A DNA stretch of 64,000 nucleotides, taken from NCBI GenBank assembly GCA_947462335.1, contig OX381717.1:47287523-47351522 (forward strand), given 5' to 3'. Positions 3,122-59,723 of this stretch are shown here, piece by piece (the stretch's first letter is position 1; the number at the start of each line of letters is the position of its first letter). The stretch is from Harmothoe impar. Taxonomy: Eukaryota; Annelida; Polychaeta; Phyllodocida; Polynoidae. The notes below the pieces were generated by a model. The model made no database searches. It saw nothing but the letters and a program-made list of their open reading frames with translations, and was not told the origin of the DNA. The translations under genes were made by a program, and so were the position numbers.

Positions 3122-3332
3122 TAACCCTTTGAAGGCTGCATAGTGTTTTAATCCGCAATGCCCTTTTTTCAAAATCAGTTTGAAGTAGCTCTGCAGTGCG
3201 GCATTCATGCATTACTTCAACAAAAGATTCCCTCTCTAAGTGACCAGTTTGATACCTGAATATAGTTGAGGCGAGTTACTCGCAGGTCATGTATTTATAC
3301 AGTAAAGCACTATGCGGCCATCAAAGGGTTAA
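3122..3332. mobile_element. FB1 foldback MITE copy
   Basis: The left TIR reads TAACCCTTTGAAGGCTGCAT and the right end reads GCACTATGCGGCCATCAAAG then GGTTA. The interior palindromes are worn, with remnants such as GCGAGTTACTCGC near 3271. It belongs to the family best preserved at 15513-15773. Confidence 0.75.
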
Positions 3333-4249: not shown

Positions 4250-4329
4250 CAGACACCTTTTAACTGCAGTCCAGATTATGATAGAGTACCAGGAAGGGGT
4301 GTATCAACGTGGAGCACCCAGCTAGCCTG

Positions 4330-4565
4330 TTAGCCCTTTAAGGACAGCATGATGGCTTTATGTGCCTTTTGTCATTTAGATTCACCAGTAAATGCAGCGC
4401 TGGTGCATGGTTTATAGCAGGTGTTGCGTTTATACCGACCCTCTGAGAGTGTAGCAACCCTGATGCTGCAATAGGTGGTTATTTGCCACTGCTGCATTTA
4501 TGCATCATGCCAAGAAAAGCCTGTGTACAATAACACAATGTGCTGCCCTGAAATGCCTCTTAGGC
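4330..4565. mobile_element. FB1 foldback MITE copy (diverged)
   Basis: It starts TTAGCCCTTTAAGGACAGCA and ends near TGCTGCCCTGAAATGCC. Family core words (AATGCAGC, GAGAGTGTAGCAACCC, GCATTTATGCATCATGCC) appear in the expected order. Confidence 0.6.
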
Positions 4566-4829
4566 AAGTGGTGAACTAGATTTAGGATAAACCACAGTGC
4601 CACTTGCTATGCAGTATGCAGACCTCCGATTTTGTTTCTTCACCCTACGCCTTCCCACCTCAAAAATATTTTGAAAAATGTATTATACCATTATATCGGC
4701 CTCAGGCCAGGGAATGGTGTTTTTAGGTGACTTGACACCTTCCTAGCAAAAGAGAGATTATTTTTGGCCAATTTTGTAGGCTAATTTAAGGTTAATTTGA
4801 TGGTCCACATCTCAGGCCATCGTCTACAA

Positions 4830-4946
4830 GTCAGAAAAGTGTCAATTTTTGGGCCTATTATAGTAAACTTATTTGTCATAACTTCGACCTACCTACCCTA
4901 GTTTTTCAGACCCGAAGCACCCTTTTTCGGCCTAAGCAAACTACTG
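4830..4946. mobile_element. Diverged end of a GGCC-ended element
   Basis: The sequence CGACCTACCTACCCTAG, followed by TTTTTCAGACC and ending TTTTTCGGCC, resembles the right end of the element at 47717-47977. The left end could not be placed. Confidence 0.35.
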
Positions 4947-5811
4947 CATTTTGATGCTCCAACCGTCACTCAATCCTACCCTAAAGTTTATTTTCCCTTT
5001 TAACGAGATTGAATCCCAAACAGTGTAGGATTTAAAATTGCATTTTAAATCCTACATGTCGGCTTACTAAGTTTTCCTAAACCTGAGATTTAAAAAAGTC
5101 AAGACTGATGTTAACATTGATTGCCAAGAAGATTTGAAAAAAAAAGAACATGTAAACCCTCCAGTATATGCCTATTACACCAAATCTACTTCAATTTGCT
5201 GGTTCTCAGCCTTCGAGATTGTATTGGGACCAATGACTCCAAGGAACCAGCTCCGAAATGTCGTCTGCTTTCTTAAATGAACTAAAAACAAACAAACAAA
5301 ATATTCACTGCCTCCTGTCAAGGACACACAAGGGTCTGAGTGGGATTTAATGCCAATTAAAAACTCGTTAATCCACACTTAATCTCCATTAAAATTAATT
5401 ATAACCGATTATTTTTGTTTAAAAAGCTGTGTCCCGACTGGAACTGGAAGTGGCAGGCAAAATATTGTCAAGATGATTTAAGGGGCGATTTGTTCTGGAA
5501 TTGTCAAGTTGGGGCTAATTCATGTTTGTTAAGCTTATTTTAAAGCAAAGATGCTTGATTTTTATTATCATTATTATGGATGAGACTTGCTAATGAATGT
5601 ATTTATTTATATAGCGATGGAAAAGGAGTGAACCTGTTCCCGCGACCTTTGTGTTTACACTGGAACAGGTGATCTTATGAGATCTTGGCTCTGCTCTCTG
5701 AAGGTAACTTGAAGGTAAGTTATTTCTCGCAAGATATGGTGTATGAGAATCTGGAATCCAATGAAATTTCTTGAGAGATTCCACAGACAGAACTATCATG
5801 ACCGTAAATAC
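4947..5811. other. Unassigned AT-rich stretch
   Basis: Short A runs and AAAC repeats occur near 5285. No TIR pair, array or splice-bounded exon was recognised. Confidence 0.35.
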
Positions 5812-6209
5812 GGGATAGCTCTCCCAGGTGAGAGGACAAACGTTTAGAGCATTATCTTAATCTTAAATCTTAATATCCTAATTCAGTGTCTTGTTTTGGG
5901 GCAATGGTGTTTTGTATTGAGACACTGTCAGTTTATTCCCTGGGCTTACAAGAAAAGATAGATTAAGATGGGATTGAAATAGAAGAAAAAGAATTAAGAT
6001 AATTTAAGATAGGATTGAAATAGAAGAAAAAGAAGACAAAAACGGGGGTTGGGGACATACTAGATAGTAATAGTAACACTTTTAAGGTAAGGTGGCGACC
6101 TCTAAGCTCAACTTCAGGTACTATAAAGTCAAGACAAATAAGATCATCTTAATAGTCTGATTAAGATAACATTCTAAACAATCGTCCTCTCACCTGGGAG
6201 AGCTATCCC
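5812..6209. mobile_element. 398-bp TIR element, GGGATAGCTCTCCC ends
   Basis: The left end reads GGGATAGCTCTCCCAGGTGA and the right end is its reverse complement (TCACCTGGGAGAGCTATCCC). This is a TIR of about 35 bp continuing into AACRTTTAGA. The interior holds repeated TTAATCTTAAATC motifs and a two-copy repeat of about 38 bp (GATTGAAATAGAAGAAAAAG at about 5971 and 6008). It contains no transposase frame, so it is non-autonomous. Internal motifs resemble the 162-bp element at 51826. Confidence 0.8.
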
Positions 6210-7622
6210 ATGCGTGCACCATGACCGCGCTAGCGGAGCAAATTATCGCTAGGCACAGTCCTGTATGCATTTTCAAAGAGTCCTGGTAATAAAAACGTTG
6301 GGAGGTTGTAGCATCACGTAACTTACCCACGGTTAGCAATTTTTTTATACAGTTAGCAGTTGGATGGTTGCGTGCCAAGTTTTTGAATTTATAAAGTATT
6401 TTATTCACCAAGTGATTTTCAAAATACAGTATACATTTCAAAAGATGAGAAACATTATCAGATGTTACAGGAATGCATGTCAGTAATCGGTGTTCGTTTA
6501 CAGTCTTATCTGTAAGTGCTCAAAATACAAGTATCATTTTACAATTAACATACAGGTTAATCGGAAATTGTTGTATCCGGCTTTCATTAGATCATATAAA
6601 TATTTATCGCAGTGTATATCAATTTCACAACTAAATTGACAGTATGATGACTCATTTATAATAATACAGAGTACTTTGATTAATACCATGAGCTCTACGG
6701 TTAGCTCTAAGTGAAGTTACTACATTTAGCAGGATTGACACACTCAGCGGTTGTACACCCCCTCTAACATAGGCCTATTTAATATATAGATACTAAGATA
6801 TTAAATAAAAACATAACTAGTGGGCATAACAGGATGTGTGCCCATGAGTAAACCGTTGTTGGTATCCACCACAAACCTATATGGTGGGTACCATCAAAGT
6901 TGCAGGTGTAGTTTGATATTTTTATTTGACCATAGTATCATAGCAAGTGGCGCTTCTCATTAAAGGTTCACAAATGAGATTCAGAAATCATGTCGACAAA
7001 ACAGAATAGTGCATTAAAGCAATATGCTACCCTTAAATAGCTCAAGTCTTCCTGTGCCAAGCATCAGCTGAACAACACTCCAACTGCTATCTATATATAT
7101 ACTAGTTACTTCTTCTCCTTCCCATACAATCTATCCCATCTCTATGTGGTTATCTGCCTGATGGAGGATCTACTAATGAGTATGTTGAGAAGCCTGTTTG
7201 ATTGGATAGCATCCTGAACAGCTCCGTGTAATAGCAATCACTGCCAACACCTAATGGTGGAAGCCGGCTGGCGCAATTACAACATAGATATCTGGGAACT
7301 GTTTCAAAATATGCAATTTCTTTTTAAAATATAACTATTGGTTGGCAAAAAAAAGGAGGGTACAAATGTATTTACTTTTGCAATTTTATTTTTGCACAGC
7401 ATCTTGGGAGGGCAAAGGAAAAATACCTGAAAGTAAATATTAGGTTTAATTGAGTGTAAAACAATTTAGGGAGATTCGATGAATACTTTGGGTTGACTAC
7501 CTTGCAATTGAAGATTTTCTCTATGCTATTTTCCAGGGTGGCACCGGTGATCAAATCTATGAGGTAATGTAGAACTTACATTACTATACTTTTGCCAAGA
7601 CAGATATTCTTGCATTTCCCAT
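6210..7622. other. Unassigned stretch
   Basis: No TIR pair, satellite or convincing exon was recognised in about 1.4 kb. Open frames are short and AT-rich on both strands. Confidence 0.35.
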
Positions 7623-7702
7623 AACATATGTGGCGCGATGTGCGAAAAGGGCCATTAGCACAGGATGTATGGGGGCCCTTTTCCCAGTGCATGTCACATA
7701 AT
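7623..7702. mobile_element. About 80-bp hairpin MITE (ACATATGTGRC ends), copy 1
   Basis: The two halves are near reverse complements: ACATATGTGGCGCGATGTGC then GAAAAGGGCC on the left, GGCCCTTTTCCCAGTGCAT then GTCACATAA on the right. A second copy is at 10892-10972. The element is almost entirely stem, so its transcript would fold as one hairpin. Confidence 0.7.
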
Positions 7703-7871
7703 CATAAAAAAATATTTTTATCTGTGATTATGCAACGCCTCCCGGTGAGTGTCCTGGTAAGGAGTAATGACTGGTGCTTCCCCCTGTTGGTTATCCGTTA
7801 TCCGTTACACTAACACCCCGCCTCAAATGACGTGCTGATCATATGACGTAATACGTCATATCTGTGGGTCA

Positions 7872-8114
7872 ATTTAGCTCTTTAAGTACCACATAGCGAT
7901 TTAATTTCCTCTGGTCCTCTGGTGTCATGATACATGAATGCAGCCCTGGTGAGTCTACTCTCTACTTGCCAGTGCAGTATCCATGCATCTCGCCAACACT
8001 TGGGGAGTGCATAGCATCAGCATGATGCTTAAATGCAGCATTGGTAAGTTATCTGCTAAGGCTGCATTCATGCATCATGATTAATAATGGCAATTATACA
8101 TGTAAAGAGGTAAA
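7872..8114. mobile_element. FB1 foldback MITE copy
   Basis: It starts TTTAGCTCTTTAAGTACCAC and ends GTAAAGAGGTAAAA. Core words TGATACATGAATGCAGCCCT, GGTGAGT and GCTGCATTCATGCATCATGA are well kept, so both internal palindromes remain recognisable. Confidence 0.75.
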
Positions 8115-8526
8115 ACCCTGGTGGACAGTACAATATAACGCCTCCTAGGCCTGTGTGAAGAAAACTTACACCAGTGGCTGTGTCTAATTATTATTCATTT
8201 CTGTAGTGCAATGGTACTCTGCCCTGGCCTTTATTCAAGACCATGGCACATTTTAAGACCAATTAATTGAGGGAGTGGTCAGTATATTTCAATGGGGGGG
8301 GGGGGGGTATTTGCAGGGGTCAATGAATTCCGATTCCTCTAGAGAGAAGCCAAAAAATGTCACTCCCCTCTCCCCAAGCCCCACCCCACCCGTTGTTTAG
8401 AAAAAAGACCACTCCCTGAGCATGCCCATATCATATATCAAAGTGCCATCCAATCTAAAAGCAAAGACGCCTCCTTATAAGTTATAGTAAAATTGTAACT
8501 TCCATAATACCACACTCATCCCTTCT

Positions 8527-8640
8527 CAGGCGTGTGGCATTGCAGCCTGTTGACGGTCCGATCGCTTCTCACGGGCAAGAAATCCAAACCGAGAGTGAGC
8601 TGTTCCGCGGCCTAATCAATCTTAATTACTAGCGACGATT
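8527..8640. other. GC-richer open patch, possible terminal exon
   Basis: The plus strand has a splice-acceptor-like CATTGCAG ending near 8549. A 28-codon open frame follows (beginning PVDGPIASHGQEIQ) and ends in TAG near 8631. The opposite strand is also open, so strand is not decided and coding status is weak. Confidence 0.15.
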
Positions 8641-8755
8641 TGATTGGATGAGATGCCATGCTGGAGTTTTTGTTTGTTTACACGGTGCTTTAACACGGTC
8701 TCTGTCACCATGTGTCATGTCTACTATGTTCAACTATGGAAGCAACTACTGAGTT

Positions 8756-8853
8756 TTAAAGGGACAATATTACCACTCACAGTTAACCACATAGCAGACT
8801 AGAACAGTACTAAAAATGTGAATGGTACATGCTTGGTGATTATACAGCTTTAA
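8756..8853. mobile_element. MITE2 (about 97 bp), copy 1
   Basis: The left end TTAAAGGGACAATATTACCA pairs with the right end CTTGGTGATTATACAGCTTTAA. The interior word GACTAGAACAGTAC is shared with the copy at 23438-23534. A further half-copy (ATAAAGTGGCATTCTCACC) begins at about 8870. Confidence 0.7.
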
Positions 8854-9800
8854 CCCTATAATGGTGCTATAAAGTGGCATTCTCACCGAGCGAATCCCAC
8901 TCACAATTATAGTACTGAAGGCAAATTGGGGACCTGAAAACTAGTTATTTTCTATCTAATTCTTTAATATTGACATTGTGAGGGAAGCACTTGGAGTAGA
9001 GATTAACCAAAGATACCACTGTAAAGCTCTTTTGATCCTATAGTTACTACATCCGTTTCCCAGTAGCTTGAGATAGGTGGATGGTGTATATCAGGATATA
9101 TATCTGGATAAATATTTCAAAAAGTTCCAATAAATAGTGAGATTAATTTGGCGATATGGAAAGTAAAGTTAACTTTCTTTTTATTTTAAAGGTATACCAT
9201 TTTAGATGTAAAGAGGACACATCGGGGATTATTTATCTGTAAAAAATGTTAAATTCCGATAATTATGAAGTTTTATACAACCTTTTGAAGTCAGAATTTG
9301 AAACGAAATAAATCTGTTTTTAATGCATAAATTGAGACTTTGAGACGTCCCCCTTATCTGATTACAATTAATGTTAAAAGCTGTATATTAGATAACCTCC
9401 CTATGATCTGGAGGTTACATGACACATTGTTTACAAATCTATTTTATATTACAGACCTACAGTTGCACATGATTCAAATCATTACACATAAGGGTCCATA
9501 TAGTACAACTTCACTACATATATTTATGTCTATGCCATTTATATGTTTTAAATACATGAAATAATGGAAAATGGAGGAAAATGACAGAAAAACGCTAAAT
9601 TCATCACAATTCAGGCAGACATGTTGATAAAGCCCTTATTTTCACATAAAAATGTTAATATTCAATTTATTTCTTCAATTCTATATACTTGAAATGATAT
9701 TTTGTTAGTTTTCTTTAGTTGCTTAGAAGTGTCTATGTATATTCCCTCGCTTAAAACCTTTACAAAACTGGATGGGGCCCAAGTCCACTATATGCCTTCC
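8854..9800. other. Unassigned AT-rich stretch
   Basis: Apart from a MITE2 half-copy at about 8870-8930 there is no recognisable repeat or exon. The sequence is A/T-rich with short open frames. Confidence 0.35.
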
Positions 9801-9804
9801 TGAC

Positions 9805-9900
9805 CTCGTGTGGTGAGAATGCCCCTTTAATGTGTTATGCCCATTTGTCATGATTCAGTGCTGCATTTATAAATTATGCCAACCCTACCCAGTAATTTAG
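9805..9900. mobile_element. Fused fragments of MITE2 and FB1
   Basis: TGGTGAGAATGCCCCTTTAA at 9811 is the right end of MITE2. It runs into FB1-like words (GTCATGATTCAGTGCTGCAT, AATTATGCCAACCCTAC). Both are fragments. Confidence 0.4.
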
Positions 9901-10028
9901 GGTAAGCTTGGGCAAGCCGTTGGCATATATATATATACCAAAGTCAATCCAATAGGGTTGAACATGTCACTAGTCCTGAACGTTCACTATTCTTGAGAAT
10001 CGCCCGTGTCTCCCCGGGAAATACATAC

Positions 10029-10147
10029 GTTTCTAACTTGTGTGATTCTTGAGCTCTGTTTGAAGGGTATGCTTTGCCCTTTCCCGGCATGATGGTTAAA
10101 TAAATTACAGCCCCGAATACAGCCCAGAGGGCTCTCCTCATCGTCAT
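10029..10147 (-). CDS. Candidate first coding exon with signal peptide
   Basis: The minus-strand frame starts with ATG at 10147 (a second ATG is at 10141). It runs 39 codons and reaches a strong donor-like GTATGT just below 10029, leaving the exon in phase 2. The peptide begins MTMRRALWAVFGAVIYLT: a short basic n-region, then a hydrophobic stretch of about 15 residues, then a polar region (KGKAYPSNRAQ). That is the layout of a signal peptide with cleavage plausible after KGKA, so the product would be secreted. The reading frame continues 39 codons past the donor without homology I can name. No downstream exon was located. I do not recognise the family. Confidence 0.35.
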
Positions 10148-10524
10148 GCATATATTTTGTACCACATGTTCTAATGAGAACACTTGTGGAAAATATTCAT
10201 GAGCCCCTGCTCGCGTTATAACGTGTGCTGTTTTTTTACAAGGAAAACACGATATCGAAAGTTGTTCTGTACATTCATATACACCATACCGACTCTACTG
10301 GGAAGACTTCGCCTAGGCTGGATGAATTCATTTTAACAACAATGACAGGAAATTATACTGCATGAATGGTTAACCGCTATTCTGGCGTTAAATGGTTAAG
10401 GATTTTGGCGAATGAAAAGAGTGCACTCTCATAAATCATAACAGTTTAAAGACCAGTTGATTCCATGTTATTGCCAAATTACACATTAACTGATTAATTT
10501 AAAAGCAAGTGAATGGAAAGTGCT

Positions 10525-10624
10525 CTAGTTGTTTACTGCCTCAGTGCTTCTGTTGGCTGTTTTCAGGAATATTGTTTCGTGATTGTGAACATGGAAAGTT
10601 GTTTCTAAACCCCTGGTCTCCTCG
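10525..10624 (-). CDS. Candidate terminal exon, unknown product
   Basis: A good minus-strand acceptor (TTTGTATTGCATTTACTAG) precedes one completing base and 32 sense codons ending in TAG at 10525. The peptide starts EETRGLETTFHVHNHE and is polar, with no domain I recognise. It could be the last exon of the minus-strand gene whose inner exon lies at 12825-13045. The phases do not join directly, so at least one exon would be missing between them. Confidence 0.2.
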
Positions 10625-10891
10625 CTAGTAAATGCAATACAAACGGAATACATACAAGAGACACCATTTGATATCTGAATCACTAGAAACAATGAAATTG
10701 GAAAGAAAATATTGGATGCTGCACTGCTTTTTTTCAAATATAATATTTTGGAAAAAGTATACACTTTATTTTAGGAAACCAATATTTTAGTATTTCATGA
10801 ATCATGTCTGGCATTCATATGAAAGTTTGCATGAGAAAAGTCACAGGCTGTATGCAATAGGTCCCACAAAGGGGCCGACCTTTAACATAGC

Positions 10892-10972
10892 AAATATGTG
10901 ACACATTCTGCAAAAGGCATCTTAGTGCAGGGTACACTCAGGTCCCTTTTCCTAGTACATGTCACATATGTT
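10892..10972. mobile_element. About 80-bp hairpin MITE, copy 2
   Basis: The ends ATATGTGACACATTCTGC and GTACATGTCACATATGTTA are inverted repeats, and the arms contain AAAAGG and CCCTTTTCC. It matches the copy at 7623-7702 in length and arm layout. Confidence 0.7.
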
Positions 10973-11326
10973 ACCATTGAGAATCGGCGTCATTTGACTG
11001 CAGTACAAGTCGATGAGAAAATAATGTGTATAACGAACACAATATTCATTTAATGATCCACCTCCAAACACAGCGCACAAAAAGTGCTGACATGGCATAT
11101 TAGACAAACCCATTTTCCGCTCCCCATCATACCATTTAGTTGTCATTAACCCAATATAGTTTAACCCTCCCATTTGAGCTGTATTTGCTATGAAACAATC
11201 TAGTGAGCATGGCCATAAAAACAACCATAAAATGCTTGGTGGTAATTGGTTACAGTTCCCATGAGTTTCACTATTACATGTACATGTGGTGGCCGATAAG
11301 AGACGTTGGGTCAGGCGAAACCACAT
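10952..11326 (-). CDS. Hypothetical open frame, 124 codons, unrecognised
   Basis: This is the longest ATG-started frame here outside simple repeats. It begins MWFRLTQRLLSATTCTC and includes a Cys-rich middle. Its last codons run into the hairpin MITE at 10892-10972, so the C-terminus would be transposon-derived. That argues for chance or decay. No conserved motif was recognised. Confidence 0.12.
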   Translation of the reverse strand: MWFRLTQRLLSATTCTCNSETHGNCNQLPPSILWLFLWPCSLDCFIANTAQMGGLNYIGLMTTKWYDGERKMGLSNMPCQHFLCAVFGGGSLNEYCVRYTHYFLIDLYCSQMTPILNGNICDMY

Positions 11327-14765: not shown

Positions 14766-15030
14766 CCTCACCTGTAAGGTCCGCATAGTGCTTTAAAGTG
14801 GCGTGCCCTTGGTCGTCATGATGCATAAATGCAGCCCTGGCGAGTCTACTCGCCAGGGCTGCATTCATGCATCATGACGACCCTTCAGGAGTGTATCGAT
14901 CCATCCTGTAGTGTCGGTATCATGCCTCAATGCAGCACTGGCAAGTTACTCACCAGGGCTGCAGTCATTTATTATTACTACAAAGGTCATATTCTGCATC
15001 AACTAATGTACTCTGCGGCCCTTAAAGGGC
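14766..15030. mobile_element. FB1 foldback MITE copy with near-perfect core hairpin
   Basis: The TIR remnants CCGCATAGTGCTTTAAAG (left) and CTCTGCGGCCCTTAAAGGG (right) flank two palindromes. The first is a 31-bp stem: arms 14815-14845 and 14848-14878 around a 2-nt loop, with a single mismatch. A spacer with CCTTCAGGAGTGTATCGA follows. The second, worn palindrome (CAGCACTGGCAAGTTACTCA and onward) comes after it. Confidence 0.85.
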
Positions 15031-15512
15031 CGGCTCCCTCACCCCAGCCTATTATCACTCCTAGCAAAAAGCTGTTTCTAATACATAGGTGTCTCTGTCT
15101 GCTATGTCAGGTCATCCAGGTAAAAATGTTCAGAGTTAGAACATACTGATGGTATATCGGTCAAGGAAACTGGGTCTTCCTGAATTGGCCCTTCCCTTTG
15201 GTAGACACACAATCAACAATGTATTTTCTCTCCAATTTTTTATATATTTAATTTTTGTTTCTCTTCAATTGCACTCTTCCTGTCTATATACCTATTGTCC
15301 CTGTCCTCTTTCCCTAGCTCTCTTCAGTCTCTCCATTCAATATCTCTCTCCTTTTCTCTCTACTTCCATATCAAATCAGGAAATGCAGTAAAACACCTTG
15401 TGAAAAAGGAATTACTACGCATTGCGCTACAGATGACAAAATGATTGCCAGATCGTATCCCTCATCACTTTCCTAAGGTGATAAGATGTAGGAAAGATAT
15501 GCTGATACCCAC
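15031..15512. other. Unassigned, pyrimidine-rich 15230-15370
   Basis: A C/T-biased patch is seen on plus. No exon or TIR pair was recognised. Confidence 0.35.
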
Positions 15513-15773
15513 CAGCCCTTTAAGGGCCGCATAGTGCATTACTGTGTTATTCCAATTTTTGTCATGATGTATTCATGCAACACTAGCGAGTCTACTTTCC
15601 AGGCCTGCATTCGTGCACCATGCAGACCCCTTTTGGGAGTGTATCAAACCCTTAGGGTCGACACGATATATGAATACAGGGCTGGCTATAGTAGACTCGC
15701 CAGGGCTGTTCCCGCATTGAAATATTATGACGACATTTTTACATTAAAGCACTATGCGGCCCTTAAAGGGTTA
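15513..15773. mobile_element. FB1 foldback MITE, best-preserved full-length copy (261 bp)
   Basis: The left TIR AGCCCTTTAAGGGCCGCATA then GTGCATTA pairs with the right TIR TTAAAGCACTATGCGGCCCT then TAAAGGGTTA. Inside, palindrome I (TGATGTATTCATGCAACACT and its partner), the spacer hairpin (GACCCC...GGGTCGACA) and palindrome II (GGGCTGGC...GCCAGGGCTG) follow in order. There is no open frame of note. It must be moved in trans, if at all. Confidence 0.9.
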
Positions 15774-16344
15774 GATAACATGTCTGGCTGTCTCCTGGTC
15801 TCACCTGGAGGGTATCAGTCACCCTATATACTTGTGTCCCCCACCTGGATTGGTGTAGGGCAGGGAGGGGGGTCTCCTTTGCTCCACTTAGTACTCTATA
15901 GCTCTTATCGTTAACTGGGTCTGACAGGCCGCACGAGTCAGAATATCAGGGGTCTGATTCAGAACGACTGCTGTATCCATCATTAAAAAAATTGTCAAAA
16001 ATGCTGCGGAGTATGAAATTTCAACTGGCCTAGAGCACTTGCCAGCGGAAAATGAATGGATACCAGACTGATAATAATGGGCCTGGAAATGTTAGTCACT
16101 ACGGACTACGTTTCTATAGTCACGTGAACGTAGAAAAAACGGCTATACCTAGTTAGTCACCTACACTGTTAGAAGTAAGTAGTGTTCCTGTACACCAAAT
16201 ACTGGGGGCAACTTAGGTTCCAGTAGATTGTGCTGTAGACCTACAGCAAGTGAGCTTTTGTATATTGACAGCACTATGTACTGTACAGGGACAGCAGAAT
16301 CTTCTGTTACTGTACAGCAAAATTGATTGTAAATCATAGTCTGA

Positions 16345-16540
16345 AGGTCCTGGGTTCACCTCCCAGTGCTGGTGACATCTTTAACCATCCATGTGAGGGA
16401 AAAACGAATTTTAGGTGGATGTAGGTGAAACAAGAGAAGTGGCTCCACCAAGGATTGAACTCACCACCTGTGGTGTTGGAGACAGGCACTGATCCATTGC
16501 GCCACAGAGCCTGTGTTACAAACATTCATATTGGGATATA
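16345..16540 (-). mobile_element. tRNA-derived SINE, copy 1
   Basis: The minus-strand head at 16511-16441 reads GGCTCTGTGGCGCAATGGAT and later GAGTTCAATCCTTGGTGGAG then CCA. It shows an acceptor pair (GGCTC/GAGCC), a D-arm-like GYGC pair around AATGG, and a B box. The 5' part strongly resembles metazoan tRNA-Arg(UCU), while the anticodon region is altered. The body (ACTTCTCTTGTTTCACCTAC) follows. It ends with a second T-arm-like hairpin in reverse orientation (CTGGGTTCACCTCCCAG on plus, at about 16352). Confidence 0.75.
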
Positions 16541-16569
16541 TCTCTACTCTACTTCTCAACTGATTAATA

Positions 16570-16790
16570 ACAATTTGTAAAGGTCTTGGATTCGCCTTCC
16601 GGTGCGGGTGATATTTCTAATCATCCATGTGAGGGGAAAACAAATTTTAGGTGGATGTAGGTGAAACAAGAGAAGTGGCTCCACCAAGGATTGAACCCAC
16701 CACCTGTGGTGTTGGAGACAGGCGCTGAACCATTGCGCCACAGAGCCGGTGTTACAAATGGTCATATTGGGATATAAGCTACCTCTGCCA
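16570..16790 (-). mobile_element. tRNA-derived SINE, copy 2
   Basis: The head at 16747-16677 (minus) keeps a better D-arm (GCGC/GCGC) and B box GGGTTCAATCC. The body matches copy 1 closely. The two lie head-to-tail with about 30 bp between, and both are followed on plus by CATATTGGGATATA. This suggests the SINE plus flank was duplicated, and argues against two independent insertions. Confidence 0.75.
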
Positions 16791-17214
16791 TGTCTGTATT
16801 AAATGAGCTACAGCCTTGTTGCTAAAGATCCCTGATGAGAGGTGGCTAGACCTAGGATCGATCCCACGACCTCTTGTGTACATATTACGGAGAAAAGTAC
16901 TGTAGATCTACAAGTCACTGCCATAACCTGCATCTACAGTAACAGAATTGTACATGTACAGTAGAATTTGCTGTATTATGATTTACAGCTAAAGCACTGT
17001 ACACTTACAGCAAATTTTGCTGTTCACGAACAACAACTTTTTACAGTGTATGTCTAATGTAAGTTAGTCATATAGTCAACCTATAGTCAGCCATTAAATC
17101 GGCTGATTTGGGCTATATAGTCAAGTGACTATGAATTTAATGGTTTCATGGTCTAAAGTAGTCACTATGACTAATAGATATAGTCAATAATGAGAAATAA
17201 GCGAAAGGCAGGTC

Positions 17215-18800
17215 AAGGTTCAGAAGGGTAGAGCAAGGCAGAGCAAGGCAGAGTAAGGCAGAGCAGAGTAATAGAAAGTAGAGCAAGGCAGAGCATGGCA
17301 GAGCAGAGTAATGTAGAGTATAGTAGGGTAGATCAAGGCAGAATAAGGCGGGGCAAAATAATGTAGAGCAGGGCAGGGCAAAGCAAGGCAGAGCAGAGTA
17401 GTAGGGATAGGGCAGTGGAAGGGACAGGCTAGGATAAGGCATGGCAGGGGACAGGCTAGGATAGGTAGGGCAGGTGACAGGCTAGGATAAGGCAGGCTAG
17501 GGGACAGGCTAGGATAAGGCAGGCTAGGGGACAGGCTAGGATAAGGCAGACCAGGGGACAGGCTAGGATGAGGCATGACAGGGGACAGGCTAGGATAGGG
17601 CAGGGCAAGGGACAGGCTAGGATAAGGCAGGACAGGGGACAGGCTATGATAGGTAGGGCAGGTGACAGGCTAGGATAAGGCAGGACAGGGGACAGGCTAG
17701 GATGAGGCAGGCCAGGGGACGGGCTAGGATAAGGCAGGACAGGGGACAGGCTAGGATGAGGCAGGCCAAGGGACGGGCTAGGATAAGGCAGGCCAGGGGA
17801 TGGGCTAGGATTAGGCAGGGCAAGGGACAGGCTAGGATAAGGCAGGGCAGGGAACAGGTTAGGATAAGGCAGAGTAGGGGACAGGCCAGGCTAGGGCAGG
17901 GCAGGGGACAGGCTAGGATAAGGCATGACAGGGAACAGGCTAGGATAGGTAGGGCAGGTGACAGGCTAGGATAAGCCAGGCTAGGGGACAGGCTAGGATA
18001 AGGCAGGCTAGGGCACAGGCTAGGATAAGGCAGGCTAGGGGACAGGCTAGGATAAGGCAGGGCAGGGGACAGGCTAGGATGAGGCAGGGTATGGGACAGG
18101 CTAGGATAGGGCAGGGCAAGGGACAGGCTAGGATAAGGCATTAAAGGGGACAGGCTAGGATAAGGCAGGGCAGGGAACAGTTCAGGATAAGGCATGACAG
18201 GGGACAGGCTAGGATAGGGCAGGGCAAGAGACAGGCTAAGATAAGGCAAGACAGGGGACAGGCTACGATAGGTAGGGCAGGTGACAGGCTAGGATAAGGC
18301 AGGACAGGGGACAGGCTAGGGTAAGGCAGGCCAGGGGACAGGCTAGGATAAGGCAGGCCAGGGGATGGGCTAGGATTAGGCAGGGCAAGGGACAGGCTAG
18401 GATAAGGCAGGGCAGGGAACAGGTTGGGATAAGGCAGGGTAGGGAACAGGCCAGGCTAGGGCAGGGCAGGGGACAGGCTAGGATAAGGCATGACAGGGAA
18501 CAGGCTAGGATAGGTAGGGCAGGTGACAGGCTAGGATAAGACAGGACAGGGGACAGGCTAGGATAAGGCAGTGCAAGGGACAGGCTAGGATAGGTAGAGC
18601 AGGGGACAGGCTAGGATAGGCCAGGGAAAGGGACAGGCTAGGATAAGGCATGGCAGGGGACAGGCCAGGATAAGGCAGGCCAGGGGACAGGCTAGGATAA
18701 GGCAGGCCAGGGGATGGGCTAGGATAAGGCATGACAGGGCACAGACAGGACAAGGCCTGGCAGGTGACAGGTTAGGATAAAGCAGGGCAGGTTACAGGCT
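17215..18800. repeat. Minisatellite, about 26-bp GACAGGCTAGGATAAGGCAG unit
   Basis: Roughly 55 to 60 units of GGGGACAGGCTAGGATAAGG then CAGGNCA, with 19-27 bp variants. A 200-bp lead-in uses a shorter GCAGAGCAAG unit (17220-17420). Long frames on minus (LPYPSLSPA repeats) and plus (ARIRQ repeats) come from the repeat period and not from selection. Confidence 0.9.
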
Positions 18801-22271: not shown

Positions 22272-22503
22272 CTTAACCCATTTAACTATCTAAAGCCATT
22301 AATTCCTCAATGCCATATGCTCATGTGTTGTCTTGATACACAAAAGGAGCTGCATTTGTGCATCAAGCAAAAGACATATAAGAGCTTTTAACCCAGTAGG
22401 TTATAGGCATGCTGCATTTGTGAGTTTCTTGACGATGCCGATTTTATGCACCATGCCTGCTGACAGAAGAGCATAGTTAACCATGCTGCCTTTATAAAGG
22501 ACC
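22272..22503. mobile_element. FB1 foldback MITE copy (diverged)
   Basis: It starts TTAACCCATTTAACTATCTA and ends CATGCTGCCTTTATAAAGG. It has GCTGCATTTGTGCATCAAGC and GCATGCTGCATTTGTGAGT inside. The palindromes are only partly retained. Confidence 0.5.
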
Positions 22504-25010: not shown

Positions 25011-25680
25011 CACATGCTTATAGGGGACAGCTCAGGGGAGGGGGCAGCTCAGAGAAGAGGGAGCAGATCATGATGTGGGGCAGCAGTTAGGGGGGGCAGC
25101 ACAGGGGAGGGGGAGCAGCTTAGGGGAAGGCGGGCAGCTTAGGGGAGGGGGAGCAGCTCAGGATGTAGGGGAGCAGCTCATGGATATGGGAGCAGCTCAG
25201 GGTTATGGGAGCAGCTCAGGATGTAGGGGAGCAGCTCAGGGTTAGGGGGCCGCTCAGGGTGGCAGAGCAGCTCAGGGGAGGGGGAGCAGCTCAGGATGTA
25301 GGGGAGCAGCTCATGGCTATGGGAGCAGCTCAGGGTTATGGGAGCAGCTCAGGATGTAGGGGAGCAGCTCAGGGTTAGGGGGCCGCCCAGGGTGGCAGAT
25401 CAGCTTAGGGGAGGGGGAGCAGCTCAGGATGTAGGGGAGCAGCTCATCGATATGGGAGCAGCTCAGGGTTATGGGAGCAGCTCAGGATGTAGGGGAGCAG
25501 CTCATCGATATGGGAGCAGCTCAGGGTTATGGGAACAGCTCAGGATGTAGGGGAGCAGCTCAGGGTTAGGGGGCCGCCCAGGGTGGCAGATCAGCTTAGG
25601 GGAGGGGGAGCAGCTCAGAGGAGGGGGAGCAGCTCAGGTTTAGGGGAGCATCTCAGTGTATGAGCTGCAGCTCAGTGAGG
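25011..25680. repeat. Minisatellite, about 20-bp GGGAGCAGCTCAGG unit
   Basis: About 33 copies of GGGGAGCAGCTCAGGDTNTA occur. A higher-order block with GGGTTAGGGGGCCGC and GGTGGCAGA recurs at about 25240, 25372 and 25562. Open frames through it are repeat artefacts. Confidence 0.9.
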
Positions 25681-28927: not shown

Positions 28928-29224
28928 GTTAACCCTTTATAGGTGGCATGATGCCTTAAGGTTTCTTGTTAATTTGTTGTCATGATGCAGTACAGCAGTG
29001 CTCGCTAGCACTGCATTTGTGCATCATGTTGATCCCGTGGGAGTGTATCAAGCGCATAGGACCAGCACCAGAAAATTACTCCTATCATTTTACGGCCCAG
29101 CATAATGATTTACTTCAGTATTCCCTTTATTTTCAAGATGCGAGTGCTTCATTCAAGCATCAATCTGACCCTTTAAGAATGTATCAGCAGAGTAAAGCAA
29201 TCTATGCTGCCCTTAAAGCATTAG
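28928..29224. mobile_element. FB1 foldback MITE copy
   Basis: The left TTAACCCTTTATAGGTGGCA then TGATGCCTTAA pairs with the right CTATGCTGCCCTTAAAGCAT then TAGG. GCTCGCTAGCACTGCATTTG then TGCATCATG is the palindrome remnant. Confidence 0.65.
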
Positions 29225-29347
29225 GATATGTGTGACAGTGTCTGGGATGTAGTGACAGAAAGCCAATCATTTCACGTTTCACATTTATTGTCAGCTGAAT
29301 TCAGGTTTACCTCAATGATAAAATATACTCATTTAGATGTACTGCTG

Positions 29348-29612
29348 TAACTCTCTTGGCCATTGGTTGTCATACTGCATGAATGCAACCCTGACAAGTC
29401 CACTTGCCAGGGTAGTATTAATGCATCATGCTGACCCTTTGGAAGTGTATCAACCCCTTATAAAATGTTATGGTCGACATGATTCTTGAATGCAGACCGC
29501 CATGACACTAAGTTAATGCAGAGTTGGTGTTTTACTTAATCACACTGCATCATGACTACAGATGAACTTGGGGCCTCGAAGCATCATACCTCCATAAAGT
29601 TCATAAATGGTT
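29348..29612. mobile_element. FB1 foldback MITE copy
   Basis: TACTGCATGAATGCAACCCT..GACAAGTCCACTTGCCAGGG and TAATGCATCATGCTGACCCT retain palindrome I and the spacer. The end CATAAATGGTTAG is a worn TIR. Confidence 0.6.
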
Positions 29613-32668: not shown

Positions 32669-32899
32669 TAAAGGACGTCATCTTGCCTTAATACAACATT
32701 ATGTGTATCATTATGTATGTAGTGTATTATTTTATAGGTTGCCATGAGGCACTGATGCAGTGCCAATGAGGAACTTCCCAGTACTGCATCGGTGCATCAT
32801 GCTGACTCTTCACGATTTTCTCCGCCCCACTTGCCTGGATGCACGCATGCATTATGGGGCAAAGCCCATCAACGCACTATGCGGCCCTTAAAGGGCTAA
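32669..32899. mobile_element. FB1 foldback MITE copy
   Basis: The left CACTTAAAGGACGTCATCTT and the right GCACTATGCGGCCCTTAAAG then GGCTAAC are good TIRs. GAGGCACTGATGCAGTGCCA and TACTGCATCGGTGCATCATG form the palindrome arms. Confidence 0.7.
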
Positions 32900-34789: not shown

Positions 34790-35019
34790 CCTGGATGCTG
34801 TTTCTCCACAAATTTGCGGAGGTCAGCAAATTCGCGGAGGTTTGTAAATTTGCTTCCATAAATTTGCAGAGGTCCGCAAATATATATGGAACTCCGTATT
34901 TGTACTATACAACGATTTCCATATATATTTGCGGCCCTCCATAAATATATGGAGAGTGTATTTACGGACGTCCGCAAATTTGCGGATGTCCACAAATTTG
35001 TGGAGAAACAGGACCCTGG
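34790..35019. mobile_element. 230-bp foldback element, GCAAATTTGCGGA arms
   Basis: The left CTGGATGCTGTTTCTCCACA then AATTTGCGGAGG mirrors the right CCACAAATTTGTGGAGAAAC then AGGACCCTGG. Internal copies of TTTGCGGA/TCCGCAAA and ATATATGGA continue the foldback across most of the element. No coding capacity was found. Confidence 0.8.
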
Positions 35020-35235: not shown

Positions 35236-35360
35236 TAACCCTTTAAAGACAGCATGATACACCAATGATGCATTATCGATTTTAGTCGTGATGCACTAAC
35301 GCAGTGCTGATGAGTATACCTTACCAGGACTGCATTGATGCATTGGATGCTAATTCATGA
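35236..35360. mobile_element. FB1 foldback MITE, left half
   Basis: TTAACCCTTTAAAGACAGCA then TGATACACCAATG starts it. The palindrome CAGTGCTGATGAGTATACCT and partner ACCAGGACTGCATTGATGCA then TTG follow. The right half is missing. Confidence 0.6.
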
Positions 35361-47417: not shown

Positions 47418-47539
47418 CCCTCCAGGGCTAATACACCCCTTAATAGTCAGCATGATGCACTAATGCAGCACTGGGGAGTAATTCCAGAAAACAAAATTAA
47501 TGTCGCTTTAAGGCAGCATGCTGCCCTCAAAGGGTTAGG
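47418..47539. mobile_element. FB1 foldback MITE, internally deleted
   Basis: TAATACACCCCTTAATAGTC then AGCATGATGCACTAATGCAG begins inside the spacer. The right end CATGCTGCCCTCAAAGGGTT then AGG is intact. Confidence 0.55.
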
Positions 47540-52200: not shown

Positions 52201-52987
52201 TGGAGGGAAGGGCTCAGGTTTCCCAGTCCTCAGAGACTATACTATTATAGGCAGGTCTTTCACACAAGGCAGCACTACCAATCAGTGCTCTACTGTAGGA
52301 CTAACCCATAGCAAAGCCATCTATTGGAGGCTTCCCATGGGATAACTGTCATTATTTCTTAGTTGCATGTTCACATCTGACTTGCTTTATTTGAACCTTT
52401 TGCCTCAAACTGACGACACCGATAACGGAGATCTGACAATTATCTGGACCTGGTTCATAGAAATTGCTTGTTCTGGGTTTGATAGCTGACTCGCAGATGG
52501 GAATCTGTAGATAATCACATTAATTAATGCGCTGCGAGACGAGATGAGAATTAAATCTCTCAGCGCGATGTTTCCAATGTCCTCTGCTAAGAATGAATGG
52601 TTTCACAGAAGTAGCAGAGTGACCAGTTGATGATGCATCCCCACGCTGCCCATTGTATATGGAGGCGAGGGTATAATCTATTTACACTTAAAGGTGCAGG
52701 GTCTAATATCAATTAGTGAGCTCTCCTATATAGTTGCATATTGTGTGTCGGGTGTATTGGTTTATATCAATTATCAAAGTTTCCTATACATATGATAATT
52801 ATATTTTAATGTCATTTTATATAATCATTTCTTTCATACACCAAGCATTGAGTAAAGGCAATACTTTAGGTTTGGCATTGCAAAAAAAGGATGGTTTATG
52901 GACTATAAAATATGGGTCACTATCAACTGGCACTACCCAGTCTCTACTAGTAGATCTGTAAGCCAACGCTGCAGCTGACAACGAATG

Positions 52988-53285
52988 TCTTAACCCTTTA
53001 AGGATTTCTATAAGCAGCATATGTCGTCATAATGTGCCAAAATATGGCTATGAATTATATCAAAAGCACTGCAAAGATACATCATGGTATTGCATCAGGA
53101 GTGTATCAGCCACATAGTGTCAGCACGAAGTATGAATGCAGCCCTGATAAGTTACTTGCAAGGGTTGCATTCAATTCAATTCAATTCAATATTCTTTAAA
53201 GAAAGTGCTTATAAATTTGAAATTAAAATTGGCCTGTATTTTTCTTGTCCCAGCATGAATGCATCACAACACCAAAGGGTATAGC
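52988..53285. mobile_element. FB1 foldback MITE copy in U1
   Basis: TTAACCCTTTAAGGATTTCT starts at the same unit position as the FB1 copy in U3 (57301), after CTGCAGCTGACA / TTGCAGCTGACA. The insertion therefore predates the duplication. It also has an (ATTCA)n expansion at 53168-53190. Confidence 0.7.
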
Positions 53286-53349
53286 ACCATGAAATACTTG
53301 ACCATCCTAAAAGCCTTGGTAAATAGACTAGTCGATAGGGTGGGGATAT

Positions 53350-53423
53350 CCCAGCTAACAAAAAAACGTTATTTTACGTCAAAATAACGTTATAAAATTT
53401 GGTATTTTTTTTTGTTTACTGGG
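53350..53423. mobile_element. MITE3, copy 3 (deleted to 74 bp) in U1
   Basis: CCCAGCTAACAAAAAAACGT and TTTTTTTTGTTTACTGGG are the ends, with AT on each side. U3 has the uninterrupted site GCAGGATATGTCAGCAG at 57564, so it inserted into U1 after duplication. Confidence 0.85.
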
Positions 53424-53821
53424 ATGCCATGCAGGCTGTGGGGATGATTATGGAGACACAGAGAATGAATGATCAGTGCCCCAACTACAGCCAACTCTTC
53501 GTAATAAATGGGAAGGGGAGCCAGGGACAGATAGCGAAGCAGGCATATATGCTGTCAGAAAGGTGTGTGATCCAGGGTGCTCAGAGACTGGAGGGAACAA
53601 AGACAAGTGGGCCTGAAATAGATCCGTAGGGCTTGAATGCTGCTAGTCTCATATTTGCTAATCTAAGGCCTAAGGCAGGTGGTCTGACATCTGTAGAGTC
53701 CAAAGGTGGGTGGCCTAATATCTGCAGCATCCAACTACAAGTGGGTCCCCATCTTGGGGTTGCAGTGGCAGGGGCACTACAATATATGCAGGTGGCCTCT
53801 AGTATGCTACAGGGGCCTCTT

Positions 53822-54082
53822 TAAGAACAACTGCCGAATCTGTCCAAAAGAAATCGTCAATAGTGTCATATTTTGCAATTGACGATGGTATTCCTCATCA
53901 TCTACAGGTGGTACATAGATACCTATTTCTATGTATTTTAATGTGATTTCTTGTGAAAGGGATCTCTTATTATGATCGTCAGACCCGGCTTTTTTACGGC
54001 ACTTTTTACCCGTCGTTCTGAAAGAGGCCCCTGGGCTCAATGAAACTAAGCTGACTGGCCGGAGGGCTGCCAATCTCAACAT
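53822..54082 (-). CDS. Open frame fragment, unrecognised, possibly decayed coding
   Basis: A minus frame of up to 91 codons ends TAG at about 53819. Its C-terminal half lies in sequence specific to U1 and reads like protein (IEIGIYVPPVDDEEYHRQLQ, then ISFGQIRQLF). The FGQ..QLF string loosely recalls the FGQTPxQLF motif of BEACH domains, but the TP is missing and the rest does not confirm it. The N-terminal half lies in the repeated unit and is unlikely to be coding. Confidence 0.15.
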
Positions 54083-54272
54083 ACTCTGTATCCTCTGAAA
54101 TGTACTTTACTTGTAAGTCAGTGAGGCAGCATTTGCAGCTTTACAACAAGTCCACATTTATATTCAATAGCATGTGAGAGTCTGAGTATTGAAAGCTTCC
54201 ATAGAAATTGGCACACCCATATTTTTTTTATGTAAATATTCCACATACCAATGCCACCCACAAAGCAGGCCT

Positions 54273-54677
54273 GACAATTACCAGGACCTGGTTCACAAAC
54301 ATTGCTCATTCCAGTTTGACAGAGGTTTCACAGATGGGAATCTGCAGATAATTACATTAATTAACGCATGGCGAGAAGAGATGAGAATTAAATCTCTCAG
54401 CGCAATGTTTCCAATGTCCTGCACTAAGAATGAATGGTTTCACAGAAGTAGCAGAATAACCAGTTGATGATGCATCCCCACGCTGCCCATTGTATATGGA
54501 GGCAGGGATATAATCTATTCACACTAAAGTGAGTCTGTATAAAATTCTAATTAGCAAGATTTGCTACATATTTGTGACAGGAGTTAGGTCTACATTATCC
54601 ATCAAAGTTTCTTAGAATTATAGTTGTCTGTCAGGCATATCGGTCTACATTAATCACCAATGGCTCCCTGTGCATAT
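54273..54677 (+). repeat. Tandem duplication unit U2 (truncated by a transposon)
   Basis: GACAATTACCAGGACCTGGT, TGGGAATCTGCAGATAATTA, CAATGTTTCCAATGTCCTGC and CAGTTGATGATGCATCCCCA match U1. The unit stops at the left end of the 2.15-kb element at 54678. Confidence 0.85.
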
Positions 54678-56556: not shown

Positions 56557-57300
56557 TTGGTCAATGTGCCATCCCTGGTGATGCTGAGTGATCACCAGCG
56601 TAGCCATCCCTGGTGATGCTGACTGATCACCAGCGTGGTCATCCCTGGTGATGCTGAGTGATCACCAACGTGGCCATCCCTGGTGATGCTGAGTGATCAC
56701 CAGCGTGGCCATCCCTGGTGATGCTGAGTGATTGATTGTGACACATCACTCAGTTTTATTTCATCTAGCACATTGAGTGAGGACCTCACTCAGGATGGCC
56801 ACGAGTCACCCCAGTTTGCTGGGTGATTAAAATTGCATGTTAAACTTCTTACTGTGAGACGAGATGATAATTAAATCTCTGAATGTTTCCAATGTCCTGC
56901 ACTAAGAATGAATGATTTCACAGAAATAGCGAGCAGTTGTGATGCATCCACTCATTGCTTATTGTAAATTAAGGCTATAAGAGTATAATCCATTCTCAAT
57001 TAGACTGCTAAATGCGCTGGGTCTAATTTAAATTGGCGAGGTTTCTGATAAGTTATAGTTATGTGTCAGGCATAGATTTATCAGTGAGACTGCTTAGCCT
57101 TTATACTCCTCGATACTTAATATTATATCCATTTCTACCCTGCATCCCACATTGAGTTAACAGCAATGATTCTAAGACTTGGCACTGCAGAGAGAGGACT
57201 GTGTTAGTAATGGACCATAATATTATATAGCTCACCATCAACTGGTACTAGGCAGTCTCTAGTAGTAGATGAGGAAGAGTTGCAGCTGACAGAGAATCTC

Positions 57301-57500
57301 TTAACCCTTTATTGACAGCATCCTCATGATGCCCTAATAATACCGTGAGGGTGAGTAACTCCCTGGCACTGCATTGATACATCATGGCATCGCTTCAGGA
57401 GTGTTTAAGCCTCATAGGGTCGGCATGATGCATGAAGGCAGCCCTGATAAGTTACTTGCCAATACTGCATCCATGCATCACAGCAAGTTGCAACAAAGAT
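57301..57500. mobile_element. FB1 foldback MITE copy in U3
   Basis: TTAACCCTTTATTGACAGCA then TCCTCATGATGCC starts it. CGCTTCAGGAGTGTTTAAGC and GTCGGCATGATGCATGAAGG follow. It is at the same unit position as the copy in U1. Confidence 0.7.
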
Positions 57501-58235
57501 CCATAGCACCATGAAGCACCATACCATTTTCTCACAGGTGTGATGAATAGACCTGTTGGGGTGCAGGATATGTCAGCAGACGGTGGGGTTGATTATGGAG
57601 CCACAGATAATGAATGACCAGTACTATAGTCGGTTCTTGGTAATAAATAGGAAGAGGATCCAGAGACTCAGAGATAGGAAAGCAGACATATACAGTGCCG
57701 GACACTATAATGGGAATGCGGTCCACGGTTGTTTGAGGGTGGAGGGCCCAATGAAAGGCTGGCGGGAAATCTGTAGGGCCTAAAGTCTGCTGGCCTTAGA
57801 TTTGCAGGGTCCAACACTGAATAGTTGTGTGGACCACCAAGCAGGTGGTCTGATATCTACAAAGCCAAAAGCAGGCGAACTAAAATCTGCAGGGCCAAAA
57901 GAAGGTGACCATTAACCTACATGGTCAAAAGCTGGTGACCGGAAATCTACATGGCCAATAGCAGGTGGGCTGAAATCTGCAAGGTTTAAAAGAAAACACT
58001 ACCCTAGTTGTATGATGACTTTAATCAATAGTCTTGGTATCAATTAAGAATATTCTAACACATTTAGTTAACCATGAGCTATTATAAGGGAGCACAGGAG
58101 GTTTATCTGCTGCAGCCCATGACGTCACCATTGGGGCAAACACACTGGGTGCTGCATTGTTTAAGCCTGGAGGCAGTGATCAAACTACTTTTGTGGGGTT
58201 CTAATTGGAAATATGTAATCTACAACATCATGATA

Positions 58236-59723
58236 CAGTGAAATCTCGTTATAAGGAGGACGGTTATAAGGAGCAGACGGTTATAAGGAGCACAATTGCT
58301 TTGCCAAAACCTTTTCTATACTTTTCTATAGTAAAAAAACACTGTTAGAACGAGCATTTCTAGACAAAAATCGTTTATAAGGAGCAAATAATTTCAAGAT
58401 ACATTAAAATTCCGCTACAATAAATTTGTTTATAACGAACTTTCTTTGGTCAGAGAATGAATTCAGAAGTAACTACTCTTTGATAATTGCGGCCTTACCA
58501 CACCTACACCCCAACCTATACAGGTGGGTGAGCGCCCAGGACTTCCCTTTGATTTCTGAGCCCCCCTGCCGCCAACCTACCCCCACACCCCGCCCTATAC
58601 AGGTGAGGGAGCACCCAGGGCTTCCCTTTGATTTCTGAGCCCCCCCCCTGCCGCCTACCTACCCCCACACCCCGCCCTATACAGGTGAGGGAGCACCCAG
58701 GGCTTCCCTTTGATTGTTGAGCCCCCCCCCTGCCGCCAACCTACCCCCACACCCCGCCCTATACAGGTGAGGGAGCACCCAGGGCTTCCCTTTGATTGTT
58801 GAGCCCCCCCCTGCCGCCTACCTACCCCCACACCCCGCCCTATACAGGTGAGGGAGCACCCAGGGCTTCCCTTTGATTTCTGAGCCCCCCCCTGCCGCCA
58901 ACCTACCCCCACACCCCGCCCTATACAGGTGAGGGAGCACCCAGGGCTTCCCTTTGATTGTTGAGCCCCCCCCCCCCCTGCCGCCAACCTACCCCCACAC
59001 CCCGCCCTATACAGGTGAGGGAGTACCCAGGGCTTCCCTTTGATTTCTGAGCCCCCCCCTGCCGCCTACCTACCCCCACACCCCGCCCTATACAGGTGAG
59101 GGAGCACCCAGGGCTTCCCTTTGATTTCTGAGCCCCCCCCTGCCGCCTACCTACCCCCACACCCCGCCCTATACAGGTGAGGGAGCACCCAGGGCTTCCC
59201 TTTGATTGTTGAGCCCCCCCCCCTGCCGCCAACCTACCCCCACACCCCGCCCTATACAGGTGAGGGAGCACCCAGGGCTTCCCTTTGATTTCTGAGCCCC
59301 CCCCTGCCGCCTACCTACCCCCACACCCCGCCCTATACAGGTGAGGGAGCACCCAGGGCTTCCCTTTGATTTCTGAGCCCCCCCCTGCCGCCAACCTACC
59401 CCCACACCCCGCCCTATACAGGTGAGGGAGCACCCAGGGCTTCCCTTTGATTTCTGAGCCCCCCCCTGCCGCCTACCTACCCCCACACCCCGCCCTATAC
59501 AGGTGAGGGAGCACCCAGGACTTCTCTTTGATTTCTGAGCCCCCCTGCCGCCTACCTACCCCCAGATATGTCACTCATGGATGCCACACCCCGCCTTGCA
59601 GATCCCCCACCCACCCAAGACTTCCCCTGTGATGTGGGCAGCCAAAATTGGTTACAAGGAAGGTTGGTTACAACGAGCAAATTTGCCTTGCCAAAAGATG
59701 CTCCTTATAACGAGATTTTACTG
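58236..59723. mobile_element. Pogo/Tigger-like element filled with a satellite
   Basis: CAGTGAAATCTCGTTATAAG then GAG and CTCCTTATAACGAGATTTTA then CTG are inverted ends flanked by TA. GGTTATAAGGAGCA words repeat subterminally. The ends match the CAGTNRAACCTCGTTATAAC-type termini usual for pogo-like Tc1/mariner elements. The interior is an 82-bp satellite and no transposase. Confidence 0.85.
58490..59565. repeat. 82-bp satellite, 13 units, inside the pogo-like element
   Basis: Each unit carries CCTATACAGGTGAGGGAGCA, CCCAGGGCTTCCCTTTGATT and a C-run followed by TGCCGCC(T/A)ACCTACCCC. Units are about 80-86 bp, differing mainly in C-run length (5-12) and TTTCTGAG versus TGTTGAG. Identity between units is very high, indicating recent amplification. 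Frames on minus are repeat artefacts. Confidence 0.95.

Follow-up and report, generated by a model that had tools for sequence, protein, structure and literature searches.

The window analysed here is a stretch of 64,000 bases of the Harmothoe impar genome (C15:47287523-47351522), in which the interval 14766-15773 had been assigned by the initial annotation to a repeat family, FB1. A single element over this interval was ruled out. It contains two insertions of about 260 bp each, at 14766-15033 and 15512-15774, separated by 478 bases free of FB1. A profile obtained from 7 window copies detected 25 FB1 loci, covering 4,501 of the 64,000 bp (7.0%), and the same profile detected no locus in any of 20 dinucleotide-preserving shuffles of the window. 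The earlier count of about 25 copies was thus reproduced, and the earlier share of about 8%, or about 5 kb, was about right. With a profile from the two interval copies alone, 24 loci were recovered. The 25 loci include a weak tail of six with scores below 30 bits (13.6-28.6). The features of the interval and the other loci of the window are as follows.

14766..15033 (+): copy A of FB1, almost full length; matched by the profile over 14770-15031 with 246.4 bits; 3 mismatches in the terminus 14770-14791 (+) and 2 in the terminus 15008-15029 (-); flanks cctc/ccgg, no longer TTAA
14811..14882: palindrome I of copy A; 35-nt arms 14811-14845/14848-14882, 2-nt loop, 97% complementary; 1.0 paired over the consensus pairs
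14878..14915: central spacer of copy A, the tip of the whole-element hairpin, from the sequence and the consensus fold
14913..14981: palindrome II of copy A, decayed, 0.68 paired
15034..15511: non-FB1 sequence between the insertions, 478 bases, no profile match
15512..15774 (+): FB1 copy B, full length, 219.2 bits; termini 15516-15537 and 15749-15770 exact; right flank TTAG
15561..15628: palindrome I of copy B, 0.58 paired (palindrome II, 0.48; both badly decayed)
3122..3331: FB1 copy, full length, 134.4 bits; flanks ATAA/TTAA
4020..4249 (+): FB1 copy, full length, 169.8 bits; flanks TTAG/TTAG
4331..4553: FB1 copy, 58.5 bits
6979..7041: FB1 fragment, weak, 13.6 bits
7875..8105 (+): FB1 copy with decayed right end, 174.7 bits
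9825..9892: FB1 fragment, weak, 17.6 bits
12055..12279: FB1 copy, strongly decayed, 50.0 bits; fold z = -0.2
22312..22496: FB1 relic, weak, 23.3 bits
26151..26263: FB1 relic, weak, 18.4 bits
27465..27696 (+): FB1 copy, 163.0 bits; flanks TTAG/TTAA
28930..29222 (+): FB1 copy, 53.7 bits for 28930-29186; decayed terminus 29199-29220 with 6 mismatches; flanks TTAA/TTAG
29340..29596: FB1 copy, 85.3 bits
31204..31430: FB1 copy, 77.6 bits
32662..32898 (-): FB1 copy, 55.8 bits; one exact terminus, 32874-32895
35236..35344: FB1 half copy, 42.6 bits
35837..35947: FB1 fragment, weak, 28.6 bits
36733..36958 (+): FB1 copy, full length, 153.1 bits; flanks CTAA/CTAA
40538..40691: FB1 fragment, 32.5 bits
44039..44100: FB1 fragment, weak, 27.9 bits
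47410..47538: FB1 half copy with terminus 47513-47534, 41.0 bits
53078..53173: FB1 fragment in a duplicated block (52532-53159 resembles 56852-57459), 40.8 bits
57302..57524: FB1 copy in a paralogous block, 82.7 bits
62142..62250: FB1 half copy, 48.2 bits

The window is about three times as rich in FB1 as the genome on average, with 10 terminus matches at up to 3 mismatches against 3.2 expected per 64 kb, and 0.01 would be expected by chance. Some of its copies are not independent insertions, because they lie inside old duplicated blocks (28.8-32.2 kb and 52.4-57.8 kb). The blocks 52417-53658, 54037-54528, 56852-57805 and 60689-61193 are related, 68-85% alike and recur every few kb, and two of them contain FB1 pieces. 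The Pfam search of 10 window open reading frames returned nothing over the cut-off. Large minisatellites were also observed at 17405-18800, 25024-25656, 58506-59564 and 62676-63580, with units of 27, 19, 81 and 95 bp, respectively. On the minus strand, a tRNA-like repeat (GGCTCTGTGGCGCAATGG...) at 16500-16800, partly repeated nearby, is probably a SINE; no tRNA was called there by ARAGORN.

Anatomy and predicted fold of FB1

From 149 profile matches in the analysed loci, 46 full-length copies were obtained and oriented by iterative scoring from one seed, the best and the opposite orientation differing by 3 to 61 bits. Because of this single-seed orientation, the symmetry of the 46-copy consensus should not stem from mixed orientation. 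In the consensus, one half is the inverse copy of the other, with 113 of 125 aligned columns identical; it thus has two arms of about 125 bp that are 90% alike, and the whole element is predicted to fold as one hairpin. Each arm carries a palindrome of about 69 bp and 31 pairs, at consensus positions 42-110 and 138-206. The median pairing of palindromes I and II was 0.74 and 0.77, compared with 0.23-0.35 when one arm was slid by 3-5 columns. In 34 of the 46 copies, Watson-Crick pairing was 60% or more in both palindromes (palindrome I was not scorable in one copy). They are not confined to the copies first shown. In the pooled-end consensus, an imperfect terminal palindrome, GCATAGTGC-TTTAAT-GCAYTATGC, was found at bp 14-37; past about bp 30 this consensus is only 45-75% conserved in an ungapped stack.

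The three-hairpin architecture proposed earlier proved right in its parts, since palindrome I, palindrome II and the folding spacer are all present. The limits of palindrome I, given as a 31-bp stem at 14815-14878, were corrected to the 35-nt arms listed above. The preferred predicted fold is different, being one hairpin. For the 17-copy consensus, in which orientation was not controlled, the whole hairpin was predicted at -237.3 kcal/mol versus -162.6 kcal/mol when pairs were allowed to span at most 80 nt. The oriented 46-copy consensus gave -218.2 kcal/mol for the single hairpin versus -149.1 kcal/mol for the span-limited, multi-hairpin form. On these predictions, FB1 is better seen as an inverted repeat over its full length whose arms each hold a palindrome, the three hairpins being a secondary view of it.

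The distance from one terminal inverted repeat (TIR) to the other was 234-254 bp in 8 of the 17 distinct pairs under 800 bp. The remaining pairs measured 151, 216 and 269 bp and, in six cases, 394-648 bp; these six include L063, with a nested element, and L052 and L054, with tandem FB1 units. The element nested within the FB1 copy of L063 (344-735) is another long palindromic repeat, with ends around GGACACATACCCAGTGGGTCCGCCATTTAAAATTTCGC. A body of about 250 bp leaves no room for a transposase, and FB1 is accordingly short and non-coding.

Insertion sites, copy number and the putative transposase

The TIRs of FB1 read CCCTTTAAGGGC at both ends, that is, they start with CCC(T/C), and the ends of the element are CCCTTTAAGGGCCGCATAGTGC. 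The flanks of 128 distinct ends showed T in 56%, T in 83%, A in 83% and A in 77% at positions -4 to -1, and were near-random further out. The commonest flanking 4-mer was TTAA (46 of 128 ends). Both boundaries were readable in 36 of the 46 full copies, with TTAA at 17 left and 16 right boundaries, and the left and right 4-mers were identical in 14 of the 36 against 8.0 expected. A target site duplication (TSD) of TA with an extra terminal R, or of 3 bp (TWA), was rejected because the bias spans all of -4 to -1 (with T at 56% at -4) and stops at -5. Forty-four joined-flank queries for an empty site were compared with the analysed loci and yielded no convincing one, as the two junction-spanning matches both lay among adjacent FB1 copies in L044. 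According to a passage of PMC10813416, TTAA is the usual TSD of piggyBac, and TTAG, CTAA and GTAA are rare. Many window copies have TTAG and CTAA flanks, which is attributed to the age of these copies. The TTAA and piggyBac-type ends were absent from the initial annotation.

The 22-bp terminus CCCTTTAAGGGCNGCATAGTGC was searched in the 1,511,831,793-base assembly. It matched 12,347 times at up to 1 mismatch, with none for the control read backwards, and 75,592 times at up to 3 mismatches versus 7 for the control. With 10 termini corresponding to 25 loci and 4,501 bp in the window, the 75,592 termini scale to a rough estimate of about 190,000 loci and about 34 Mb, or about 2% of the genome. Five arbitrary 5-kb stretches gave a similarly rough value of 1.3% (331 of 25,000 bp), with two FB1 loci, one of only 10 bits, and four of the five stretches without FB1. 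One COX1 of this assembly is 98% identical to an entry labelled Phyllodocida and 93% identical to Branchipolynoe and also to Neanthes entries, which by itself places the worm only to order. L031 (C466, COX1 at 6571-7902) holds a second mitochondrial COX1, 82% identical to that of Paragonimus westermani, the top named matches being digenean trematodes; judged from this sequence, it probably belongs to a fluke parasite that was sequenced together with the worm and not removed from the assembly.

The piggyBac transposase domain PF13843 (DDE_Tnp_1_7) had 10 matches in the genome, five of them with frames over 600 aa. Three loci (L010-L012) are piggyBac elements of 2.8 kb with the TIR TTAACCCTCTGGGCCC, and a fourth (L009) is one of 2.4 kb with the TIR TTAACCCTCTAGTGTT/A, all with TTAA on both sides. 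These elements, which begin TTAACCCTCT, resemble FB1 in the TTAA TSD and the TTAACCCTYT start; they differ in their open frames of 628-671 aa and in the bases after CCCTYT, and their TIRs are not the FB1 ends. None of the 10 matches had FB1 ends on both sides of the transposase in the analysed DNA. For L014-L018, there was no FB1 profile match in L021/L022 (L017 by pattern only), and one pattern match with 6 mismatches occurred in L014. L022 has a one-sided TTAACCCTTATC.

Two candidates, one for the autonomous FB1 and one for a longer element with FB1 ends, were rejected. On contig C441 (L013/L019), the minus-strand interval 4290-11183 (L019/L020) has an open frame of 2,298 aa, composed of an N-terminal stretch, a GD/RD-type repeat tract of about 1,100 residues and a piggyBac transposase domain. 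The FB1 piece at the frame end is a 148-bp single-palindrome copy with two termini of its own (3 and 6 mismatches), no other FB1 match occurs in the 28-kb contig, and the piece appears to truncate the C-terminus of the transposase. The second candidate, C1:22582053-22584515, consists of two separate copies around a coding-looking block.

Terminal palindromes were compared with mononucleotide shuffles at 8 ends in all. The left-end palindrome at bp 15-34 of L010 and L012 (TGGGCCGATTTATCGGCCCA) was equalled in 3 and 1 of 500 shuffles, respectively, and sits where the right end of FB1 has its palindrome at bp 14-37 (13 of 500). The right end of L009 gave a palindrome at bp 19-32 (17 of 500), and its left end was not convincing (48 of 500). 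The left end of FB1 (67 of 500) and the right ends of L010 and L012 (317 and 299 of 500) were at chance. A passage of PMC11707139 describes how, in piggyBac and piggyBat, the C-terminal domain of the transposase binds subterminal palindromes as a dimer, the two ends being different. By analogy with such palindrome-bearing ends and their binding by the C-terminal domain, the data suggest that one such end was duplicated in inverted orientation to give FB1, whose terminal palindromes may be putative transposase binding sites.

MITEs of the piggyBac superfamily are short, non-coding elements with TIRs and a TTAA target duplication. FB1 is very probably an ancient MITE of this type, a DNA transposon that is neither coding nor autonomous. 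The abundant foldback MITE proposed at the outset has been borne out, with TIRs, a 4-bp TTAA target, a length of about 250 bp and tens of thousands of termini in the genome. A piggyBac-family transposase from elsewhere in the genome would have excised FB1 and reinserted it at TTAA sites. The element itself perhaps arose by inverted duplication of a single transposon end. A stronger version of this origin, which we put forward as a tentative and rather doubtful idea, is that FB1 is a "one-end" transposon, made by inverted duplication of a strong palindrome-bearing piggyBac end. On this view the nested palindromes would form arrays of transposase binding sites, and having two strong and identical ends would have let the element parasitize its helper with unusual efficiency. 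If true, two such ends would explain both the roughly 190,000 loci of the scaled estimate and the lack of an FB1-ended helper among those found.

TTAA is also targeted by other superfamilies, such as Kolobok, and superfamilies are not separable by the TTAA duplication alone. Together with the absence of FB1-ended piggyBac transposases among the 10 PF13843 matches, this would speak for FB1 being a MITE of another TTAA-targeting superfamily, with its terminal CCCTTT merely convergent with piggyBac. This alternative is unlikely, however: CCCTT is given in a passage of PMC10813416 as the most conserved motif of the piggyBac 5' TIR, and the piggyBac elements of the same genome begin in the manner given above.

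Decay of the copies and the place of FB1 among known elements

The divergence of the 46 copies from the FB1 consensus (K2P) had a median of 0.212 (21%) and a range of 0.10-0.51. The window copies include three of the six most diverged, and copy A (0.162) is the seventh least diverged. The pairing of the two arms was 0.777 between copies and 0.785 within a copy, the latter value being reached in 8 of 2000 permutations, in which relatedness was not controlled. For the local hairpins, the corresponding values were 0.796 and 0.789 (24 of 2000). A maintained hairpin was rejected: the gain within copies, though real in the permutation test, is below 1 percentage point, and the fold is therefore read as not appreciably maintained. 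The pairing of FB1 decays about as neutral sequence would, and nothing points to selection on the fold after insertion.

The initial annotation had considered FB1 a possible small-RNA source, and these values also bear on that reading, in which FB1 is, or yields, a functional hairpin RNA as a source of siRNA or miRNA. The predicted hairpin of the 17-copy consensus is extreme (-237 kcal/mol, z = -43 versus shuffles), and the best four of the 17 copies fold at -174 to -194 kcal/mol. In L062 on C1, a block that looks coding (450-1760, recognized by eye, with no gene prediction) has one FB1 copy about 50 bp ahead of it and another about 600 bp past its end, so some copies may be transcribed in introns. 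However, the arm pairing within copies barely exceeds that between copies, and the z values of the 17 single copies range from -0.2 to -20.5 (copy A, -9.5; copy B, -13.8), the weakest being close to shuffled sequence. The Rfam search of the window gave three matches below the gathering threshold, all at 34862-34946 and none in FB1. A functional RNA is thus very improbable. In the main reading of FB1 as a piggyBac-type MITE, the deep hairpin would be a by-product of the inverted duplication, with no RNA or DNA structure being maintained.

The tandem arrays L052/L054 (common flanks, 81% over pieces of about 1 kb) and the duplicated blocks of the window might speak for FB1 having spread chiefly by tandem or segmental duplication, like a satellite, with incidental TTAA flanks. 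This can practically be dismissed, since the TTAA profile of the 128 distinct boundaries largely refutes it. FB1 matches also occur on 19 contigs (40 candidates scored out of 3,283), its termini are near equal by strand (38,106/37,486), and the arrays look secondary. These two arrays, on C1 at 9.88 Mb and 10.17 Mb, consist of tandem FB1 units with a non-FB1 linker of about 45 bp (seen in L052) and represent a transposon-to-satellite transition. They were rejected as evidence of a transposing four-palindrome subfamily because their flanks are common to both.

FB1 is old, very abundant, flanked by TTAA and ended by CCC, and its consensus is an inverted repeat over its whole length. As a piggyBac-type MITE, it would since have lost its transposase source, and its copies would now be decaying. 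Full-length inverted-repeat MITEs are known, for example Angel of zebrafish, which we take to be of the foldback type, and MITEs with TTAA and CCC ends are ordinary; FB1 therefore belongs to a familiar kind. Pokey is an element of the piggyBac type, and its MITEs in Daphnia, mPok1 and mPok2, are the subject of PMC4912750. As MITEs of this superfamily they would, by description, resemble FB1 in the short non-coding body, the TIRs and TTAA. FB1 differs from them in that the inverted repeat covers its whole length and each arm contains a palindrome, and none of the PF13843 matches proved to be an autonomous element with its ends. Tm1, a Mutator/Foldback element of root-knot nematodes (PMC3169594), and Angel are likened to FB1 by description, most or all of the element being an inverted repeat. 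They are set apart, again by description, by their other host lineages and, for Tm1, by its Mutator type. Among the literature matches listed for piggyBac, MITE, foldback, annelid and Harmothoe transposable elements, no report of FB1 was found by title and the start of the abstract, and the FB1 end strings matched only literature on Vibrio and Bacillus. Judged from this literature, FB1 represents a new family within a familiar kind, and its palindrome-within-arm design is somewhat unusual.

By the rough scaling, FB1 accounts for a couple of percent of the Harmothoe impar genome. The long hairpin-forming DNA that it supplies at high density matters for repeat masking, assembly, and any small-RNA or RNA-editing work in polynoid worms. 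Furthermore, as open-frame piggyBac elements with partly analogous ends are present in the same genome, FB1 can be set beside them when asking how a piggyBac end is recognized.
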